64,000 nucleotides of DNA from Actinomycetota bacterium (lineage in GTDB: Bacteria; Actinomycetota; Thermoleophilia; Solirubrobacterales; Solirubrobacteraceae): assembly GCA_018268595.1 (NCBI GenBank), contig JAFDWH010000009.1, positions 62,001-126,000 on the forward strand, in the 5' to 3' direction. This document shows, one piece after another, positions 6,693 to 16,883 of the stretch. Below the pieces are notes generated by a model. It made no database searches, was not told where the DNA came from, and saw only the letters and a program-made list of their open reading frames with translations. Each line of letters begins with the position of its first letter. Position 1 is the stretch's first letter. The position numbers were made by a program, and so were the translations under genes.

Positions 6693-8459
6693 TTACATCT
6701 CGACGGGCAGCAGGTCGACCCGCCCGCGCGCCGTGTCGACGCGATCCACCTGCACGCGCACGCGGTCGCCGATGCGGATCGCCGCGCCGCTGCGCGTGCC
6801 TTCGAGGATCGTGCCCTCCTCGTTGAGCTCCCACCACTCGCCGCGCAGCTTGCGCACCGGCAGCATCCCCTCATGCCCGTCGCCGAAGACGACGAACGCG
6901 CCGGCGCCGATCACGCCCGTCACCTCGCCCTCGAAGTCCTGCTCCCAGCCGCGCTCGAACAGCTCGCGCTCGAGCAGGAACGCGCGCGCGACGTCGTCGG
7001 CGGCCCGCTCGACGCTCATCGCGTCGCGCTCGCGCGCGGAGCACCAGTCGCCCGCGCCGGGCAGCGCGCTCGCCTTCGGCGCCTCCTCCCCGCCGCCGAC
7101 GGCGCTCAGCAGCGCGCGGTGGCAGACGAGGTCGGGATAGCGCCGGATCGGCGAGGTGAAGTGGCAGTAGTGCGTCAGGCCGAGGCCGGCGTGGCCGAGG
7201 TTCGCGGGGTCGTAACGGGCCAGCTTGAGCGAGCGCAGCACGAGCCCGTTGAGCCCGATCATCCCCTGGCCGGTGCGCTGGACGTGCTGCTCGACGAGGT
7301 GCGAGCACTGCGCGATCGTCTCCGCCGCCTGCTGCGGCGTGAGGTACTCGGGCGTCGGCGGCGTCGCCACGTCGAGCGAGGCGAGCTGCGCGACGAGGCG
7401 CTCGGCGGCCTCCCCCTCGGGCCGCTCGTGGACGCGGTAGAGCGTCGGGACGCTGCGGTCGGACAGCAGCTTCGCGACCTGCTGGTTGGCGAGGATCATC
7501 AGGTGCTCGATCAGGCGATGCGCCTCCGTCTGCACGACGCGATGCTGCGCGGTCACGTGGCCCTGGGAGTCGAACGCGAAGTCGGGCTCGACCGACTCGA
7601 CCGCCAGCGCCCCGCCGCGCTCGCGCTCGGCCTGCAGCGCGGCCGACGCCTCGCGCGCCGCCGCGAGCGGCTCCGCCCACGGCGTCTCCGGATGCTCGCG
7701 CAGCGCGAAGATGCGGTCGACCTGGTCGTAGTCGAGCCGCTTGTCGGAGCGGATCAGCGAGCGGTAGAACGCGCTGCGCACGACGCTCACGCCGTCGAGG
7801 TCGAGCTCGACCGTGACGGCGTTGCGGTCCTCGCCGGGCCGCAGCGAGCAAGCGCCGTTGGAGAGCGCCTCCGGCAGCATCGGCTCGACCTTGCCGGGGA
7901 CGTAGACGCTCGTGCCGCGCCGGTAGGCCTCCTTGTCGACGAGCGACCCGGGCCGCACGTAGGCGGAGACGTCCGCGATGTGGACCCAGATGCGCCATCT
8001 GCCCTCGCCGCGCCGCTCGGCCGAGATCGCGTCGTCGAAGTCCTTCGCGGTCGCCGGGTCGATCGTGAACGTCGTCAGGTCGCGCAGGTCGCGGCGCGCG
8101 ACGTCCGGCACGCCGTCGCCCTCCGCTGCTTCGCGCGCGGCGCGCTCGACCGCCGGGTCGAAGCGGCGCCTGAGCCCGCGGTCGAGCATCAGCGCCTCCA
8201 GCACGTCGCGTGCGACGTCCGGGCGGCCGATCCGCCGCTCGACCTTGGCGTGGCCGCGACCGCCCTGTCCTCCCCGCCCGCCGGCCCGCAGCAGCACCAG
8301 GTCGCCGACGCGCGCTCTGCGGTCCGCGTCGACGATCAGCTGCGCGGCGCGCCCGAAGAACGGGTCGCCGACGAGGAAGCGCCCGCGCTTGTCGAGCACC
8401 GCGACGACGCTCGCACGGGGGGCGACGCGCTCCCCGTCGCGTGGCTGCCAGCGCGTCAC
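6693..8459 (-). CDS. rnr: ribonuclease R / RNase II family exoribonuclease
   Basis: This 588-residue 3'-5' exoribonuclease has an N-terminal cold-shock-like region, the RNB catalytic domain (about 115-450) and a C-terminal S1 domain with [15 protein letters not shown]. The RNB domain contains the metal-binding [15 protein letters not shown], with its Asp cluster, and [14 protein letters not shown], and further on [12 protein letters not shown]. It is shorter than E. coli RNase R (about 800 residues) because the N-terminal extension is missing. RNase R degrades the defective mRNA released by trans-translation, which fits its position immediately upstream of smpB. The GTG start overlaps the stop of the S41 peptidase gene by 4 bp. 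Confidence 0.93.
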
Positions 8460-9664
8460 CGTGGCTCGGCGGCCAGCTGTCTCAGCGCCGCGTCGAGCGC
8501 CTCGTCGCGCCGCGTCGTGTCGGGGTTGTCGGAGGCGCGCACGTCGGGCGCGATGCCTCTGCCCTCGGCGACGCCTCTGCCGCCGATGTTGCGCCCGCTC
8601 GGCAGGAAGTACTGGCCGACCGTCAGGTCGAGCGCGCCGCCGTTCGGCAGCTCGCGGATCTCCTGGAAGACGCCCTTGCCGTAGGTGTTGGTGCCGACGA
8701 CCTCGGCGCGTCTGCGGTCCTGCAGCGCGCCGGTGACGATCTCCGCCGAGGAGGCGGTCCCGCGGTCCACGAGCACGACGACGGGCACCTTGCCGGGGAT
8801 CGCGCCGCCCGTCGCGGTGTAGACGTGGCGGGCGCGGGCGCGCCCGTCGGTCGAGACGATCGTCCCGTCCGGGAGGAAGATCGAGGCGACGCCGACCGCC
8901 TCGTCGAGCAGCCCGCCGCCGTTGCCGCGCAGGTCGAGCAGGATGCCGTCGGCGCCGGCGCTCAGCAGCCGCTCGACGGTCGCGTGCACCTGTCCGGCCG
9001 AGCCCTGCGTGAAGCTCGTGTAGATCACGTCGCCGTAGCGCTTCCCGCGCCAGCGCACGATGCGGCCGGCGACGACCGGCTGCGTCACGCGCGCGCGTTC
9101 GATCGCCTGCGTCGTGCGTCTGCCGTGGCGCTCGATCGTGAGCGTGACCTTCGTGCCCGGCTGCCCCTTGATCAGCGCGATCGACGCGCTCGACGGGCGC
9201 CCGGCGAGCGATCTGCCCTCCACCGCGACGATGCGGTCGCCGCGCCGCAGGCCCGCTCTCGCGGCCGGCGTGCCGGCGATCACCGACTCGATCGTGAGCG
9301 GCCCGCTCGGGTCCGGCCGCACGGTCACGCCGATGCCGCTGAAGCTCGGGTTCGTGACCTGCTCGAAGCGCTTGTACGTGGTCGGGTCGAAGTAGTGCGA
9401 GAACTGGTCTCCGAGGCTCGCGACGGCGCCCTCGATGCCGCGGTCGACCAGCTGACTGCGGGAGACCTTGCGGTAGTAGATCCGGTCGATCGTGTCGACC
9501 GCCTGCTGCATGAGGCGCGTGTCGTCGTTGCCGGCGAAGGCGTCGCGGATCGGGCCGGGCAGCCCGCTGGGATGGCCGCCCAGGTAGATCCCCAGCAGCA
9601 GCACGGCGAGCGCCCCGAGCGCGACGGCGAGGGCGCGCCCGATGCGGGGGAAGCGGCGAGTCAC
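8456..9664 (-). CDS. S41 C-terminal processing peptidase, membrane-anchored
   Basis: This 402-residue serine protease of the CtpA/Prc family has an N-terminal membrane anchor (residues about 9-28) with the catalytic part outside. A PDZ domain spans about 105-190 ([21 protein letters not shown]). The catalytic dyad is Ser305 in [10 protein letters not shown] and Lys330 in NTYGKGVFQ, 25 residues apart as in E. coli Prc. Such enzymes trim or degrade envelope proteins; in other Gram-positives ctpB lies near ftsEX. It is the first gene of a ctp-rnr-smpB operon. The GTG start has TACGCT 6 nt upstream and no Shine-Dalgarno sequence, so it may be leaderless. Confidence 0.92.
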
Positions 9665-9670
9665 CGGGTC

Positions 9671-9713
9671 AGCGTACCGACCGGCGCCGCTCGCCCCGGT
9701 CGCTGGGTACGCT
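9671..9713. promoter_or_regulatory. divergent promoter dyad
   Basis: AGCGTACC (9671-9678) and GGTACGCT (9706-9713) are inverted. An inner pair GACCGG/CCGGTC (9679-9684, 9696-9701) can extend the hairpin past a GCTG bulge. Each outer arm carries an outward-facing TACGCT -10 box. The minus-strand box sits 6 nt before the S41 peptidase GTG; the plus-strand box would serve the aldehyde dehydrogenase, which has GGAGG at 9740-9744. Confidence 0.4.
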
Positions 9714-9748
9714 CGACGGAGCCGTCGATCCTCAGTCCTGGAGGCCCC

Positions 9749-11191
<1,443 letters not shown>

Positions 11192-11221
11192 GTGGGCTTG
11201 GCGAAACCCGCCGCGTCGCGC

Positions 11222-11244
11222 TAAAACACTCTATTCCGGTTTTA
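11222..11244. promoter_or_regulatory. AT-rich dyad upstream of RiPP promoter
   Basis: TAAAAC (11222-11227) and GTTTTA (11239-11244) form an inverted repeat with an 11-nt spacer, 4 nt upstream of the -35 box. Such AT-rich sequence stands out in this GC-rich DNA. It could be an operator or an UP-like element. A terminator of the aldehyde dehydrogenase gene is less likely, since the stem is only 6 bp. Confidence 0.4.
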
Positions 11245-11248
11245 TGGG

Positions 11249-11277
11249 TTGACCGGGGTGGGTCACCGGCTTATGCT
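11249..11277 (+). promoter_or_regulatory. sigma-70-type promoter of the RiPP operon
   Basis: The -35 box TTGACC (11249-11254) and -10 box TATGCT (11272-11277) are separated by exactly 17 nt. Transcription would start near 11284, leaving a leader of about 26 nt that carries a CAGGGGG Shine-Dalgarno sequence (11297-11302) before the ATG at 11310. It is the best consensus-like promoter I found in the window. Confidence 0.65.
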
Positions 11278-11309
11278 CGATCGATCCTGAGCACTCAGGG
11301 GGTGCGCGG

Positions 11310-12857
11310 ATGATCGAGTTGCCGATGGCCGGTGCGGCGAAGGGCCAGCAGGGCGCTGGCTGCCGGGCCGGTGCCAAGAGGACGGACTGCGGCGCAGGCG
11401 CCGGCGGCGACGGCGGGGTGATCGCCGAGCGCGCCGCGGCGCTCCAGGCCGAGATGACCGAGCGGCTGCGCGCGGTCCGCGCGCGTCGAGCTCTGCCGAC
11501 GCCATACGTCGAGCGGCCCCAAGTCGACGTCGACCTCGACTCCGCCGCCTCGCTCCCGCTGGTCGCGCCGCTCGCGCACCGGCGCGTCGACGGCGCGCAC
11601 CTGTGGGTCGCCGTCGAGCAGGGCGCCGTCCTCGTCTTCGACGACGCCGATGACGCGCGCTTTCGGCAGCTCGCGCAGGGCGCCTCCCCGCGTGCGATCG
11701 CCTCGCGCGAGCTCGGGCGCACAGCCGACGGCGACGACGTCGCGCGGCACCTCGGCGACCTGCTCGGCCGCATCGCCAGCGCCGGCTTCCTGACGTCCAC
11801 CAGCGGGCTCCACGGCAGCCGCGTGCCGACGCCCCACCGCTTCGCGCGGCTGCATCTGACGAAGGCGTGCCAGCTCCAGTGCGTGCACTGCTACGCGGAC
11901 TCCAGTCCGACGGTCGACCGCTCCGGCGAGCGCCCGCTCGCCTGGTGGCGCGCCCTGCTCGACGAGCTGGCGGAGGTGGGCACGGAGCGCGTCCTGTTCA
12001 CGGGCGGCGAGGCGCTCGTGCACCGCGGGTGCCTTGGGCTGATGGAGCACGCGAAGACGCTCGGACTGCACGTCACGCTGTTCACGAACGGCATCAAGGT
12101 GCCGAAGCTGATCGACCGGATCGCCGCAAGCTGCGATCAGGTCCAGGTCAGCCTCGACGGCCCGTCGCCGGAGATCAACGACCCGATCCGGGGCAAGGCG
12201 AGCTACAGCCGCGCCGTGCGCGCGCTCGACGCGCTGCTCGAGACGGACGTGCAGGTGCGCGTGGGCATCACGAGCATGGCGTCCAACTGGGAGGCGTGGC
12301 GCGAGCAGTTCGCTCGCTTCGCCGAGCGCTTCGCGCACACCGACCTCGAGTACAAGATGAGCTTCGGGATCACTGAGCACGGCCGCGCCGAGGGCATCGG
12401 CGAGCAGCTCGATCCAGAGGCCGCCAAGGCGCAGGTGGAGCGGCTCCTGTCCGGACGACGCGGCAGCCAGCTCGGTCCCCGCGTGACGCGCCGCACGACC
12501 GGATGCGGGTACTTCGAGCAGATCGTCGTCGGCCCCGACGGCACGCTCTACCCCTGCCATCTGCTGGACGCGCCCCTCGGCAACGCCGACGACAAGCCGC
12601 TGGGCGCGTGGGTGGAGGAGCTCACGCACCTGGCGACGCTCTTCAGCGTCGACTACACGGACGGCTGCGCGAGCTGCGACATCCGCTACCTCTGCGGCGG
12701 GACCTGCCGCGTCATGAACGCGAAGCGCACCGGCAGCCGGCTCATCACCACCTGCACGGACGCCGACAAGCAGCGGCGCTATCGCAACCTCGTCAAGTAC
12801 TACGCGGCGGACGCACGGCCGTCAGGCGCCGTCGCACTGCCAGTCCACCACGAGTAG
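11310..12857 (+). CDS. PqqD-like/radical SAM/SPASM peptide maturase
   Basis: This is a 515-residue enzyme. After a Gly/Cys-rich N-terminus (1-36), residues about 82-162 look like a PqqD-type RiPP recognition element (LWVAVEQGAVLVF, then DVARHLGDLLGRIASAGFL). The radical SAM core follows with Cys187, Cys191 and Cys194 in CQLQCVHC (CX3CX2C) and the SAM-binding TGGE at 231-234. A textbook SPASM domain closes the protein: Cys399, Cys416, then CX2CX5CX3C at 453-466, and Cys482, enough for two auxiliary Fe-S clusters. Such enzymes form thioether or carbon-carbon links in ribosomal peptides. The precursor gene begins 14 bp downstream. The ATG is supported by a good Shine-Dalgarno sequence. Confidence 0.9.
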   Translation: MIELPMAGAAKGQQGAGCRAGAKRTDCGAGAGGDGGVIAERAAALQAEMTERLRAVRARRALPTPYVERPQVDVDLDSAASLPLVAPLAHRRVDGAHLWVAVEQGAVLVFDDADDARFRQLAQGASPRAIASRELGRTADGDDVARHLGDLLGRIASAGFLTSTSGLHGSRVPTPHRFARLHLTKACQLQCVHCYADSSPTVDRSGERPLAWWRALLDELAEVGTERVLFTGGEALVHRGCLGLMEHAKTLGLHVTLFTNGIKVPKLIDRIAASCDQVQVSLDGPSPEINDPIRGKASYSRAVRALDALLETDVQVRVGITSMASNWEAWREQFARFAERFAHTDLEYKMSFGITEHGRAEGIGEQLDPEAAKAQVERLLSGRRGSQLGPRVTRRTTGCGYFEQIVVGPDGTLYPCHLLDAPLGNADDKPLGAWVEELTHLATLFSVDYTDGCASCDIRYLCGGTCRVMNAKRTGSRLITTCTDADKQRRYRNLVKYYAADARPSGAVALPVHHE

Positions 12858-12871
12858 GAGGCCCGACGCCG

Positions 12872-13159
12872 ATGCCCGACCCAGAGAACCCGGAGCTGCC
12901 CGAGATCCCGCAGCCGCAGGTCAAGCCGGAGTTCGCCAACGACGTCAAGACAAGGCTGCGCAGAGCGCCCGACGGAGAGCTGCACCATGCGACGACGGTG
13001 CACGTCGACCTGCCGGAACCGCTCGCGGAAATCCTCAAGAGACACGACCTCGCGGTGAAGTTCAAGAGCCGTGAGCTGTCCAGAATTCTGCTCGACCAGT
13101 CGGCCGGCATGGTGTCCACCGACGGGTGCATCTCCTCGCCCGGCGGCCCCGGCTGCTAG
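12872..13159 (+). CDS. candidate RiPP precursor peptide
   Basis: This 95-residue peptide is encoded between two modification-enzyme genes. It has an acidic, Pro-rich N-terminus (MPDPENPELPEIPQP), a middle segment with amphipathic helix (LPEPLAEILKRHDLAVKF) typical of a leader bound by a PqqD-like domain, and a C-terminal tail STDGCISSPGGPGC. The only two cysteines, Cys86 and Cys95, are in that tail, 9 apart, with the second as the final residue. The tail is low in complexity and unlike the rest, as expected for a core peptide. The ATG is preceded by GTAGGAGG at 12855-12862. The precursor role is inference from position, size and composition; I do not recognise the family. Confidence 0.75.
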   Translation: MPDPENPELPEIPQPQVKPEFANDVKTRLRRAPDGELHHATTVHVDLPEPLAEILKRHDLAVKFKSRELSRILLDQSAGMVSTDGCISSPGGPGC

Positions 13160-13163
13160 GCCG

Positions 13164-14345
13164 GTGAGCGCCCTCCCCGCCTCGCCGCCGGCCGCCGCAA
13201 GTGGCTCGGCCTGGTCCGACGACGTCCTCGTCGCGACGCTCGTCGCGCTGATGCGCGCGGGCGCGATCGCCTCCGAGACGAGCCACGACGACTATGCGGT
13301 CGCGCGCGCGATCGACGTGCCGAAGCTCGTCGCGACGCAGACGAAGGCAGTCGACTGGCTCAGCCTGGTCCGAGCGGGATCGGTCCTCGACGCGTCCGTC
13401 TGGTCACTTCCGGAGGGGTCGCCCGATGCGCGCCGCGTCGCATCCGCCTACCGCGCCGGGTACAGCCTCGTGATGCGCCGGCTGCATCTGCGCGTGCCGG
13501 CGGTCGCGGCGCTCGCGCGGCGGCTCGACCAGGCGCTCGCCGACGCCGGCGTGCTCTTGCGTCAGGCCATCCGCTCGAACCTGTTCGCCTCGCCGGCGGG
13601 CGCCACCGGCCTCGCGCTGCACTACGACGACCACGACGTGGCAGTGCTGCAGCTCTCGGGCGAGAAGCGCTGGACGGTCTACGAGCCCGTCTACCGCCAT
13701 CCGCTCGAGCACCCTGCCAAGCACCTGGAGCCGGAGGACTGCCGCGAGTGCGCGTTCGAGGGGGTGCTGCGACCAGGCGGGCTGCTGTTCATCCCGCGCG
13801 GCTGCCCGCATCGCGCGCACACCACCGAGGCGCCTTCGGTTCACATCACGCTCGGCGCGACGCGCTGCACGTGGCTGGACCTCGTGCAAGCCGCGGCGCC
13901 CCATGCGGAGGCGCTGCGCGCCGACCTGCCGCCGCTCGCGGGCGGGCGGCTCGACTCGGACGAGCGGCTTGCGCGGGCGCTCATGGACGACGAGGCCGTC
14001 GCGGCGGCGCTGGGAGATCTCGCCGAGCGCTGGACGCAGACCGCGACGGTCGGCGCGGGCCCGCCCGACTGGGACGTGCCGAGCGCCCCGCTCACGCCCG
14101 CGTCGCTGGTGCGCCGGACCGTCGCATCGCTCAGCGTCCTCGTCGAGCACGCCGACGGCGACGCGACGCTGTGCAACCAGTCGCTGCGGCTGCGCGGCGC
14201 GCGCGACGCCGCGCTGCTGCGCTTCCTGCATGAGCGCGAGCAGTTCGCCGTTCACGAGCTCCCGCTCGAGCCCGCACCCGTCGCGCAGCTCGAGCTCGTG
14301 GAGCGGCTGCTGTCCGACGGCGTCCTGGAACGCGTCGAGGCGTGA
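13164..14345 (+). CDS. JmjC/cupin Fe(II)-2-oxoglutarate oxygenase, RoxA/YcfD-like
   Basis: This 393-residue protein resembles ribosomal-oxygenase-type JmjC enzymes (Cupin_4). The facial triad is visible: His153 and Asp155 in ALHYDDHDVAVLQLSGEKRW, and His216 in IPRGCPHRAHTT. The strand pattern around them (L-Q-L-x-G-x-K-R-W-x-V-Y and G-G-L-L-F-I-P) matches the family. The C-terminal part (about 260-393) is helical, as in the winged-helix end of the family. Known members hydroxylate Arg or His in ribosomal proteins; here the location suggests hydroxylation of the precursor peptide, which is inference. GTG at 13164 starts 4 bp after the precursor stop. The 3' end overlaps the next gene by 1 bp (TGATG). 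Confidence 0.8.
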   Translation: MSALPASPPAAASGSAWSDDVLVATLVALMRAGAIASETSHDDYAVARAIDVPKLVATQTKAVDWLSLVRAGSVLDASVWSLPEGSPDARRVASAYRAGYSLVMRRLHLRVPAVAALARRLDQALADAGVLLRQAIRSNLFASPAGATGLALHYDDHDVAVLQLSGEKRWTVYEPVYRHPLEHPAKHLEPEDCRECAFEGVLRPGGLLFIPRGCPHRAHTTEAPSVHITLGATRCTWLDLVQAAAPHAEALRADLPPLAGGRLDSDERLARALMDDEAVAAALGDLAERWTQTATVGAGPPDWDVPSAPLTPASLVRRTVASLSVLVEHADGDATLCNQSLRLRGARDAALLRFLHEREQFAVHELPLEPAPVAQLELVERLLSDGVLERVEA

Positions 14346-15982
14346 TGCGCGCAGCGCACGGGGTCTTCGTCTGCGCCCCGTTCCACTCAACCGCCAACCC
14401 GCCGGTCGGGATCGCGTACCTGCGCGCGTCGCTCGCGCGCGCCGGCATCGAGTCGACCGTCGAGGACCTCAACATCGAGGCGCGCCGCGCGCTGCACGAG
14501 CTGCTCGCGGACGATCTCCGCGCCCGCGCGTCGGTCGACGAGCTGTTCATGCAGGCGCGCCGCTCCTATCTCGGCGAGGCGCTCGCGTGGTCGTGGCTCG
14601 ATCCCGACGGAGCCGAGGCGGTCGTCGCTCGCGCGATCCGTCATCCGTCGGCCGCGCTGCGCGCCTTCTGGCGCGCGGTGGGTGTCGAGCGCCTGACCGG
14701 CGACCCCGAGCTGACGCGGCTCGGCGAGCTGCTGCGCGGGTGGCTCGCGGAGCGGACGCTGATGCTCGCGGGCCGCGACGTCGGCTGGGTGGGCCTGTCG
14801 CTGACCGTCGGCAACCTCGCCGCCTCGTACTACGTGGCGGCGCTGCTGCGCGACGCGCGCCCCGATCTGCTCCTCGTCGCCGGCGGACCGCACGTCTCCC
14901 CCCGCAACGCCGCCGGCGTGCTGCGCGGATGCCCCGCCTTGGACGCGGTCGCCCTGAGCCCCGCCTACGACGCGCTCGCGCGCCTGCTGAGCGGCGAGGA
15001 GGACCGCCCGCGCGGGATCCTCACCCGTGCAGACGGCTCGCAGGCGGCGATCGCGCCGCCGCGCCATCCGCCGCTCGACGAGCTGCCGTTCGCCGACTGG
15101 TCCGGCATCGAGCTCGCGCGCTATGCGCCGTCGTTCGACGTCTCGTACGCGCGCGGCCGCGACTGCGCCGACGTCCGCACGATGCCCCTGCAGACCTCGC
15201 GCGGCTGCGCCTACGCGCGCTGCGAGTTCTGCCACAACGTCGTCGACTATCCGCGGCTGCTGATGCAGACGCCGGCACGCGTCGCGGCGGAGGTCGAGGA
15301 GCAGCACAGCCGCCACGGCGTCGTGAACTTCTTCTTCACCGACGACGAGTTCAACAGCTCGCGCCGTCGCGTGCGCGAGATCGGCGCGCGGCTCCTCGCC
15401 GGCGGACTCGACGTCCGCTTCATGGCGTGGATGCGCATCGACAAGATCGACGAGGCGATGCTCGACGACCTCTATGCCGGCGGCTGTCGGCAGGGCTTCT
15501 TCGGCGTCGAGGCCGTCGACGACGAGCTGCTCGACGCGATGACGAAGGGCTACGACGCGGACCGGGCGCTCGCCGGCCTGCGGCTGCTGCGGCGCTTCGC
15601 GCAGGCGCAGCCGGACTTTCGCTTCGACTTCAACCTCATCGTCGATCATCCGCGTGAGCGGCTGCAGTCGGTCACAGCCACGTTGCGAACCGTCTGCGAG
15701 GAGCCCGACCTGTTCGTCGGGCACCTCGCGGCGCTGTGCCGCTACCACGTCTACGAGGGGACCCCGGCCTTCGCCCGCTACGGACGCGAAGCGGTCGGCT
15801 GCCTCGATCCGATCGTCCCGCCCGGCGTGCCCGTCGACAGCTTCCGGTATCTGCTGCCGATCGACGACGCGCGGGACCTCGAGGCCCGGATGGAGGCATG
15901 GTCCGCCGTCGAGCAGCTGGCGGCGCTCGGGCGGCGAGGCGGGGCCGCTGTGGGACCGTCCGGGGTCGGGATCTACGACTAG
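14345..15982 (+). CDS. B12-binding radical SAM protein
   Basis: This 545-residue protein has an N-terminal cobalamin-binding Rossmann-like region (about 1-230), opening with ANPPVGIAYLRASLARAGI and including VGLSLTVGN and LLVAGGPHVSPRN. The radical SAM barrel follows (about 275-480). The cluster cysteines are Cys288, Cys293 and Cys296 in GCAYARCEFC, a CX4CX2C spacing rather than CX3CX2C. B12-radical SAM enzymes often methylate unactivated carbons, and several act on RiPPs. It is the last gene of the locus, coupled to the oxygenase gene by a TGATG junction. It ends 7 bp from the convergent ftsX stop, with no terminator between. Confidence 0.88.
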   Translation: MRAAHGVFVCAPFHSTANPPVGIAYLRASLARAGIESTVEDLNIEARRALHELLADDLRARASVDELFMQARRSYLGEALAWSWLDPDGAEAVVARAIRHPSAALRAFWRAVGVERLTGDPELTRLGELLRGWLAERTLMLAGRDVGWVGLSLTVGNLAASYYVAALLRDARPDLLLVAGGPHVSPRNAAGVLRGCPALDAVALSPAYDALARLLSGEEDRPRGILTRADGSQAAIAPPRHPPLDELPFADWSGIELARYAPSFDVSYARGRDCADVRTMPLQTSRGCAYARCEFCHNVVDYPRLLMQTPARVAAEVEEQHSRHGVVNFFFTDDEFNSSRRRVREIGARLLAGGLDVRFMAWMRIDKIDEAMLDDLYAGGCRQGFFGVEAVDDELLDAMTKGYDADRALAGLRLLRRFAQAQPDFRFDFNLIVDHPRERLQSVTATLRTVCEEPDLFVGHLAALCRYHVYEGTPAFARYGREAVGCLDPIVPPGVPVDSFRYLLPIDDARDLEARMEAWSAVEQLAALGRRGGAAVGPSGVGIYD

Positions 15983-15989
15983 CTGGTCG

Positions 15990-16883
15990 TCAGACGCGCA
16001 GGAAGCGGCGCAGCGAGACGGCCGAGCCGATCGCGCTGATCGCGATGCCCGCGGCCATCATGACCGCGATCAGGATCGTGAAGGGCATCGTCTCGGGCGC
16101 GCTGATGAGCGAGAAGTCGCTCGCGAGCGGGTCGATGATCGCGATCTTGCCGACCGCGAGCAGCAGGATCGCGAGCAGCGTGCCGAGCGCGCCGACGATG
16201 ATCCCTTCGATCACGAACGGCCAGCGGATGAACCAGTCGGTCGCGCCGACGAGCTTCATCACCTCGACCTCGCGGCGGCGCGCGTAGAGCGACAGCCGGA
16301 TCGTGTTCGCGATCAGGAAGATCGAGGCGGCGATCAGCAGCGCCGCGAGCGTCCCCGCCATCAGCTTCACGAAGCGCGTGACCTCGAGAATCTTGGTCGT
16401 GTCGTCGCGGCGCGTGCGCACCTCGTCGATCGCGCGGTCGATCGGCGTGTGGCCGCCGCCGGCCGCCTCCGGCGCGAGCGCCGACGCGATCTTCAGCACG
16501 TCGTCGGGGTTCTCCGGCGTGATGCGGAAGGTGTCCGGCAGCGGGTTCGCGCCCAGCAGCGCGAACGCCTCCGGGTCCTTCTTGCGCTGCTGCTGGTAGG
16601 CCTCCTGCTTGGAGACGAACTCGACGCGCTTGACGTTCGTCGTGTCGAGCAACTGCTGGCGCACGCGCTCGACGTCGGATTGCGTCGCCCCTCTTACGAG
16701 GTAGACGTCGACCAGCACGCGCTTGCGCACGTCGTTGGCGGCGCCGGTCGTCGCCTGCACGATCGGGATGAAGACGCCGACCACGAGCATCGTCAACAGC
16801 ACGGTCGCGAGCGCCGCGAACGACGGGGCCGCGTTGCGCCGCAGCGCGCGCGACGACTCGCGCATGAAGAAGCCGAGCTTCAC
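15990..16883 (-). CDS. ftsX: cell-division permease-like protein FtsX
   Basis: This 297-residue membrane protein has the FtsX architecture: a short cytoplasmic N-terminus, a first membrane helix (about 22-45), an extracytoplasmic domain (about 46-170), then three helices ending at residue about 285 with the terminal SLRRFLRV. The typical segment between helices reads RRREVEVMKLVGATDWFIRWPF. With FtsE it relays a cytoplasmic signal to a periplasmic or wall hydrolase. GTG at 16883 overlaps the ftsE stop by 4 bp; further upstream the same frame runs out of phase through ftsE. The M23-type hydrolase gene often found next to ftsX is absent here. Confidence 0.93.
   Translation of the reverse strand: MKLGFFMRESSRALRRNAAPSFAALATVLLTMLVVGVFIPIVQATTGAANDVRKRVLVDVYLVRGATQSDVERVRQQLLDTTNVKRVEFVSKQEAYQQQRKKDPEAFALLGANPLPDTFRITPENPDDVLKIASALAPEAAGGGHTPIDRAIDEVRTRRDDTTKILEVTRFVKLMAGTLAALLIAASIFLIANTIRLSLYARRREVEVMKLVGATDWFIRWPFVIEGIIVGALGTLLAILLLAVGKIAIIDPLASDFSLISAPETMPFTILIAVMMAAGIAISAIGSAVSLRRFLRV

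Follow-up and report, generated by a model that had tools for sequence, protein, structure and literature searches.

A rare cassette pairing radical SAM/SPASM and JmjC enzymes with a short cysteine-containing peptide core, probably one of a small family of modified-peptide loci

We analyzed a 64,000-nucleotide stretch of contig JAFDWH010000009.1 (positions 62,001 to 126,000, assembly GCA_018268595.1) from an Actinomycetota bacterium of the class Thermoleophilia, referred to here as the window. A run of four plus-strand genes at 11310-15982 has the look of a small cassette for a ribosomally synthesized and post-translationally modified peptide (RiPP). The genes are, in order, gene A (11310-12857), a radical SAM/SPASM peptide maturase of 515 amino acids; gene B (12872-13159), a precursor peptide of 95 amino acids; gene C (13164-14345, GTG start), a JmjC_2 family Fe(II)/2-oxoglutarate (2OG) oxygenase of 393 amino acids; and gene D (14345-15982), a cobalamin-binding radical SAM enzyme of 545 amino acids. 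The junctions A/B, B/C and C/D measure 14, 4 and -1 bp. A first-pass annotation made from the sequence alone had given the coordinates, strand, lengths and junctions of this run correctly.

Gene A matches the Pfam Radical_SAM model with an E value of 7.9e-22 over a radical SAM core at 11853-12272 and carries the cluster motif CQLQCVHC. Although the Pfam SPASM model reaches 17.7 bits, under its gathering cut-off of 21.5, the SPASM cysteine set is complete (C399-x11-G-x4-C416, C453-x2-C456-x5-C462-x3-C466 and C482, at 12504-12755), and the earlier assignment as a radical SAM/SPASM protein stands. The top curated family is the sactipeptide maturase StsB (108.4 bits against a cut-off of 625), which is also the best curated match for all three of the cassette SPASM enzymes described here (108, 116 and 141 bits). 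On these profile scores gene A is best placed as a distant relative of the actinomycete StsB, far under the family cut-off. Its C-terminal part also matches PapB and SCIFF-maturase profiles weakly, under all cut-offs.

Gene C matches Pfam JmjC_2 with an E value of 1.3e-24 (86.6 bits against a cut-off of 22), confirming it as a JmjC oxygenase; its closest solved relatives are NO66 and MINA, and YcfD, the type first proposed, comes third. The metal ligands H153, D155 and H216 are invariant in four cassette JmjC proteins, and these four fall outside a clade of 26 chromosomal JmjC proteins of the class (support 95/98). Such chromosomal JmjC_2 genes (L037-L062) are present in 26 other of 399 class genomes, mostly of one family (f7), and the few kb flanking these Thermoleophilia homologues hold no linked core or SPASM gene. 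Gene D matches both expected Pfam domains, Radical_SAM with an E value of 3.5e-11 and B12-binding with 32.4 bits against a cut-off of 32.1, as had been annotated. Its best NCBIfam match is TIGR03975, the RiPP radical SAM C-methyltransferase, at 82.3 bits over residues 8-441, a similarity that suggests C-methylation by gene D.

The reading of gene B as a RiPP precursor is supported mainly by a new observation: its C-terminal core recurs in two distant precursors near the same enzymes. The precursor C-termini are STDGCISSPGGPGC in the window, SSDGCISNPGGPSC in Mycetohabitans and ASTGCFSNIGGPSC in Streptantibioticus cattleyicolor, and the longer stretches MVSTDGCISSPGGPGC, MTSSDGCISNPGGPSC and ITASTGCFSNIGGPSC respectively all run to the stop codon. 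Seven core residues (G85, C86, S88, G91, G92, P93 and C95) are invariant in the three precursors, with C95 the C-terminal residue in each. Just upstream, Q76 and M80 are also invariant, and because of this we place the putative leader cleavage after M80. The leader would then extend over 12872-13111, and the alignment of the three precursors predicts a core VSTDGCISSPGGPGC, V81-C95, at 13112-13156.

The alignment score between the window and Mycetohabitans precursors is 98, compared to a shuffle maximum of 50 (n=5000), and between the Mycetohabitans and S. cattleyicolor precursors it is 80, compared to a maximum of 63 (n=5000). For the window and S. cattleyicolor the score is 65, which 1 of 5000 shuffles equaled. 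The three leaders alone show no similarity above shuffles. A core above chance with leaders at chance is the pattern that selection on the core would produce. Gene B has a coding-type base composition, with GC of 0.67/0.44/0.89 by codon position, similar to neighboring genes, and we reject the idea of a chance open reading frame (ORF) since the C-terminus is found again, beside the same enzymes, in two genomes that are unrelated. Pfam and curated family models match no known family in gene B. A core of this type occurs once in the window genome. Weak precursor matches in the 399 class genomes (L002-L030) were dismissed as chance, the best two, when checked, being ORFs in unrelated surroundings that lack the enzymes.

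The related cassettes came from searching 72,556 plasmids at the protein level, where gene A has two strong matches at 46 % identity, each with a JmjC gene nearby; in the comparison of the three cassette SPASM enzymes, gene A is 41 % identical to these two. The first is in Mycetohabitans endofungorum strain B60 (NZ_CP062170), a fungal endosymbiont of the Pseudomonadota, where a conjugative plasmid carries the cassette amid insertion sequence elements and the precursor is a 101-residue peptide, annotated as hypothetical, between the SPASM and JmjC genes. The second is on the megaplasmid pSCAT of S. cattleyicolor (NC_016113), a Streptomyces relative of the Actinomycetota. This cassette (L064, 7504-15853) is larger, comprising the precursor, a JmjC-2OG fusion, the SPASM enzyme, a second JmjC, a fused TfuA-YcaO and a PhyH dioxygenase; the precursor lies upstream of the fusion in a stretch unannotated in the plasmid table. 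The same C-terminal core thus accompanies homologous SPASM and JmjC enzymes in two phyla, in agreement with the RiPP reading first proposed and contrary to the possibility that homologues of the peptide always lie apart from such genes.

A SPASM enzyme, one or more JmjC enzymes and the core are common to all three cassettes. PhyH is found in both relatives (53.8 % identical to each other), as is a 2OG-Fe(II) oxygenase, either stand-alone or fused to JmjC, while TfuA-YcaO is confined to S. cattleyicolor and neither TfuA nor YcaO is among the four window genes. The annotation had taken the full enzyme set as the unit. This does not hold: because the B12-radical SAM gene is in the window only, the four-gene set is one variant of a SPASM plus JmjC theme. 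Outside its own genome gene A has no match at an E value of 1e-30 in the 399 class genomes, and a profile of the three SPASM sequences finds the window alone at 1e-50 in 396 genomes of the phylum. The 365 genomes sampled from the class to which a Nonomuraea isolate belongs yield only distant enzymes at 1e-40. A contig scan with P0001 alone (rigid octamers) returned unrelated radical SAM proteins only, and viral contigs and phages held nothing relevant. Within the genomes and plasmids sampled, in which Pseudomonadota are covered by plasmids and not by chromosomes, the cassette is rare and scattered.

We compared the cassette with described systems. In a wide sense it resembles sactipeptide loci, which are defined by thioethers from Cys to an alpha carbon made by SPASM enzymes (PMC5682303), in having the SPASM cluster ligands and conserved core cysteines (C86 and C95). 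The nearest curated family of gene A is StsA/StsB (NF045558/NF045559, NF045574). However, gene A shares 28-30 % identity with StsB-like enzymes, and gene B has no match to StsA-type models at E values up to 10, whereas the true StsA-related precursor of locus L068 scores 132 bits. By these scores the locus is not of the StsA/StsB type, gene A being below the StsB cut-off and its precursor without an StsA match; the three cassette enzymes are more distantly related to true StsB clusters, which have StsA-type precursors. In L068 the StsB enzyme scores 895 bits and stands beside a stand-alone PqqD, which is not seen in the window cassette. The Actinomycetes StsB-like clusters L068, L071 and L072 have a TfuA gene no more than about 8 kb away (with YcaO in L068 and L072), which suggests thioamidated sactipeptides; the S. 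cattleyicolor cassette has TfuA-YcaO as well.

Ranthipeptide (SCIFF/CteB, PapB) and QhpD-type systems likewise combine a SPASM enzyme bearing auxiliary cluster ligands with a Cys-containing core, but gene B matches no SCIFF or PapA-type precursor. Cyclophane RiPPs of the triceptide or streptide type were rejected, as the window core has no aromatic residue, and a thioamidated RiPP was rejected for the window in view of the missing TfuA and YcaO. Biphenomycin biosynthesis (bip/bpm/pbs) is like the window cassette in that a JmjC hydroxylase and a B12-radical SAM enzyme both act on one precursor (PMC12707348, PMC12257519). Unlike the cassette it uses an MNIO, an arginase and an FRF-type aromatic core, and no SPASM enzyme is among its described genes; with neither an MNIO nor an arginase among the four genes and no Phe or Arg in the core, we do not assign the window to that class. 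PMC12257519 is the sole paper found that joins radical SAM, SPASM, RiPP and JmjC, and its subject is biphenomycin-like peptides. In a 2021 survey, Burkholderia thailandensis is reported to have two radical SAM genes together with a fused tfuA-ycaO (PMC8120280), and the figure legend concerned also names a phytanoyl-CoA dioxygenase, a combination recalling the TfuA-YcaO and PhyH of S. cattleyicolor. The Burkholderia clusters may be cousins of the cassette family. Within the literature within reach (many subscription papers lie outside it), we found no description of this core or of the SPASM and JmjC pairing.

We consider it fairly probable that the genes form a small, horizontally acquired RiPP cassette in which SPASM, JmjC and B12-radical SAM enzymes modify the core, with thioether cross-linking of cysteine. 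Gene B would be processed into a leader and the C-terminal 15-residue core. Gene A would bind the precursor and, using a 5'-deoxyadenosyl radical and auxiliary iron-sulfur clusters, join C86 and/or C95 to carbons in the backbone or side chains of nearby residues in the style of sactipeptides or ranthipeptides. Thioether formation would be the likeliest chemistry, since two cysteines are invariant and the window core is free of aromatics: F, W, Y and H are all missing from the final 16 residues of the precursor. Together with the absence of aromatic residues from two of the three cores (window and Mycetohabitans), the invariant cysteines disfavor cyclophane, Lys-Trp and biaryl chemistry. JmjC relatives hydroxylate protein side chains, and gene C would hydroxylate one in the core, where Arg and His are absent and Asp84, Ile87, Pro90 and Pro93 are candidates. 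In another RiPP it is ornithine that is hydroxylated, by BipG, whose domain belongs to the same type (PMC12707348). Gene D would add a lineage-specific change, most likely C-methylation, and both hydroxylation and C-methylation of the core are plausible. Release of the product would depend on a protease and an exporter whose genes lie elsewhere. The analysis establishes the gene set, intact catalytic motifs in the SPASM and JmjC enzymes, a conserved core that goes with both enzymes in three distant bacteria, and an insertion at a site otherwise conserved; we infer every chemical step, the step order, the cleavage site and the role of the product.

Alternatively, the locus may be a RiPP cassette whose SPASM enzyme makes no thioether and instead forms a C-C or C-O linkage, desaturates or epimerizes a residue, or oxidizes the terminal Cys, the B12 enzyme possibly being the one that cross-links. 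SPASM enzymes catalyze many reactions, the scores of gene A to thioether families are weak, and C95 stands at the very C-terminus in all three precursors. Moreover, the B12-radical SAM enzymes BipD and PbsB of biphenomycin cross-link rather than methylate (PMC12707348, PMC12257519), so that the proposal of a crosslinked, hydroxylated and C-methylated product is not supported as it had been put. We nevertheless regard a thioether-free cassette as unlikely, given the two invariant cysteines, which have no aromatic partner in the core of either the window or the Mycetohabitans precursor, and the fact that the closest curated families form thioethers.

Two further explanations take the product out of the secreted natural products or the peptide out of the pathway. 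It is conceivable that maturation of the core yields a cofactor or redox group of peptide origin, in the style of PQQ or mycofactocin, for an enzyme of the cell: conservation between phyla is much stronger in the core than in the leader, the window cassette has neither transporter nor dedicated protease, and an aldehyde dehydrogenase gene shares its insertion. Such a role is improbable for a cassette that is very rare, sits on mobile or accessory DNA and varies in tailoring among its three forms, two of them with no aldehyde dehydrogenase seen in their neighborhoods. Still less probable, in our view, is a structural or regulatory role for the small protein of gene B, with the enzymes working on other substrates, the JmjC for example as an ordinary ribosomal-protein hydroxylase. 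YcfD/NO66-type JmjC_2 enzymes do modify ribosomal proteins, and the 26 other class genomes carry chromosomal homologues, but the four cassette JmjC proteins stand apart from that clade, gene B is interleaved in the operon and the core recurs with the same partners.

Several observations weigh against the thioether-forming cassette that we prefer. Gene A lies far under the StsB cut-off, and the TIGR03975 score of gene D is well below the curated 281.9. The cluster motif of gene D is atypical, CX4CX2C (CAYARCEFC, 15206-15232) in place of the usual CX3CX2C, and its gene is missing from both relatives. The branches of the JmjC tree are long, which calls for caution about the clade separation. Only three cassettes were found, and that of the window includes no dedicated protease or transporter. 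The PqqD-like N-terminus reported for gene A is matched by no profile: neither the Pfam PqqD profile nor hhalign supports such a domain or a RiPP recognition element. Residues 91-157 (11580-11780) are a tentative candidate for the latter, with a beta3-alpha3 order in a low-confidence AlphaFold model; the two models, built without alignments, have a mean pLDDT of 42 and are too poor for a fold search. Fusions of RiPP recognition element folds to JmjC_2 proteins are reported in PMC12710340.

The cassettes probably represent a family of modified-peptide natural products that is small and so far undescribed. Radical SAM-modified RiPPs and the mix of JmjC with B12-radical SAM are already known, while the core family and the SPASM/JmjC pairing seem new. 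The claim that no described class has this enzyme set therefore survives for SPASM and JmjC with this core and fails, on account of biphenomycin, for JmjC with B12-radical SAM. We tentatively hypothesize, as a serious possibility that falls short of probable, a new class of RiPPs, characterized by the core SxxGC[IF]S[NS]xGGP[SG]C and the SPASM and JmjC pair, yielding a heavily oxidized, thioether-bridged peptide with host-specific elaboration: B12-radical SAM in the window, and in the relatives PhyH plus 2OG oxygenases, to which thioamidation may be added. If true, the class would be common to actinobacteria and a fungal endosymbiont. The cassette offers a testable precursor-enzyme set, in which radical SAM and JmjC enzymes would act on a very short core that is rich in Gly, Pro, Ser and Cys and devoid of aromatics. 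A core kept across two phyla under varying tailoring enzymes makes a natural comparison of products possible, and the plasmid of a fungal endosymbiont as one host hints at an ecological role.

The cassette lies in a segment of about 6.3 kb (9665-15989) between ctpA (8456-9664, minus strand) and ftsX (15990-16880, minus strand), together with an aldehyde dehydrogenase gene (9749-11191, plus strand; Pfam Aldedh 1.2e-164). Because ftsX and ctpA neighbor each other in five congeners, where the site lacks both the aldehyde dehydrogenase and the cassette, we regard the segment as inserted. An Rfam scan of 9600-16100 gave no match. A consensus scan, the only evidence for it, places a promoter-like site TTGACC-17-TATGCT at 11249-11277 on the plus strand, about 32 bp upstream of gene A (1 found, 0.1 expected in shuffles). 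The ftsX-ctpA junction, about 137 bp wide in one congener (L084), looks like an insertion hot spot. In three congeners it holds another gene, a methyltransferase in L080 and similar ORFs in L082 and L083.
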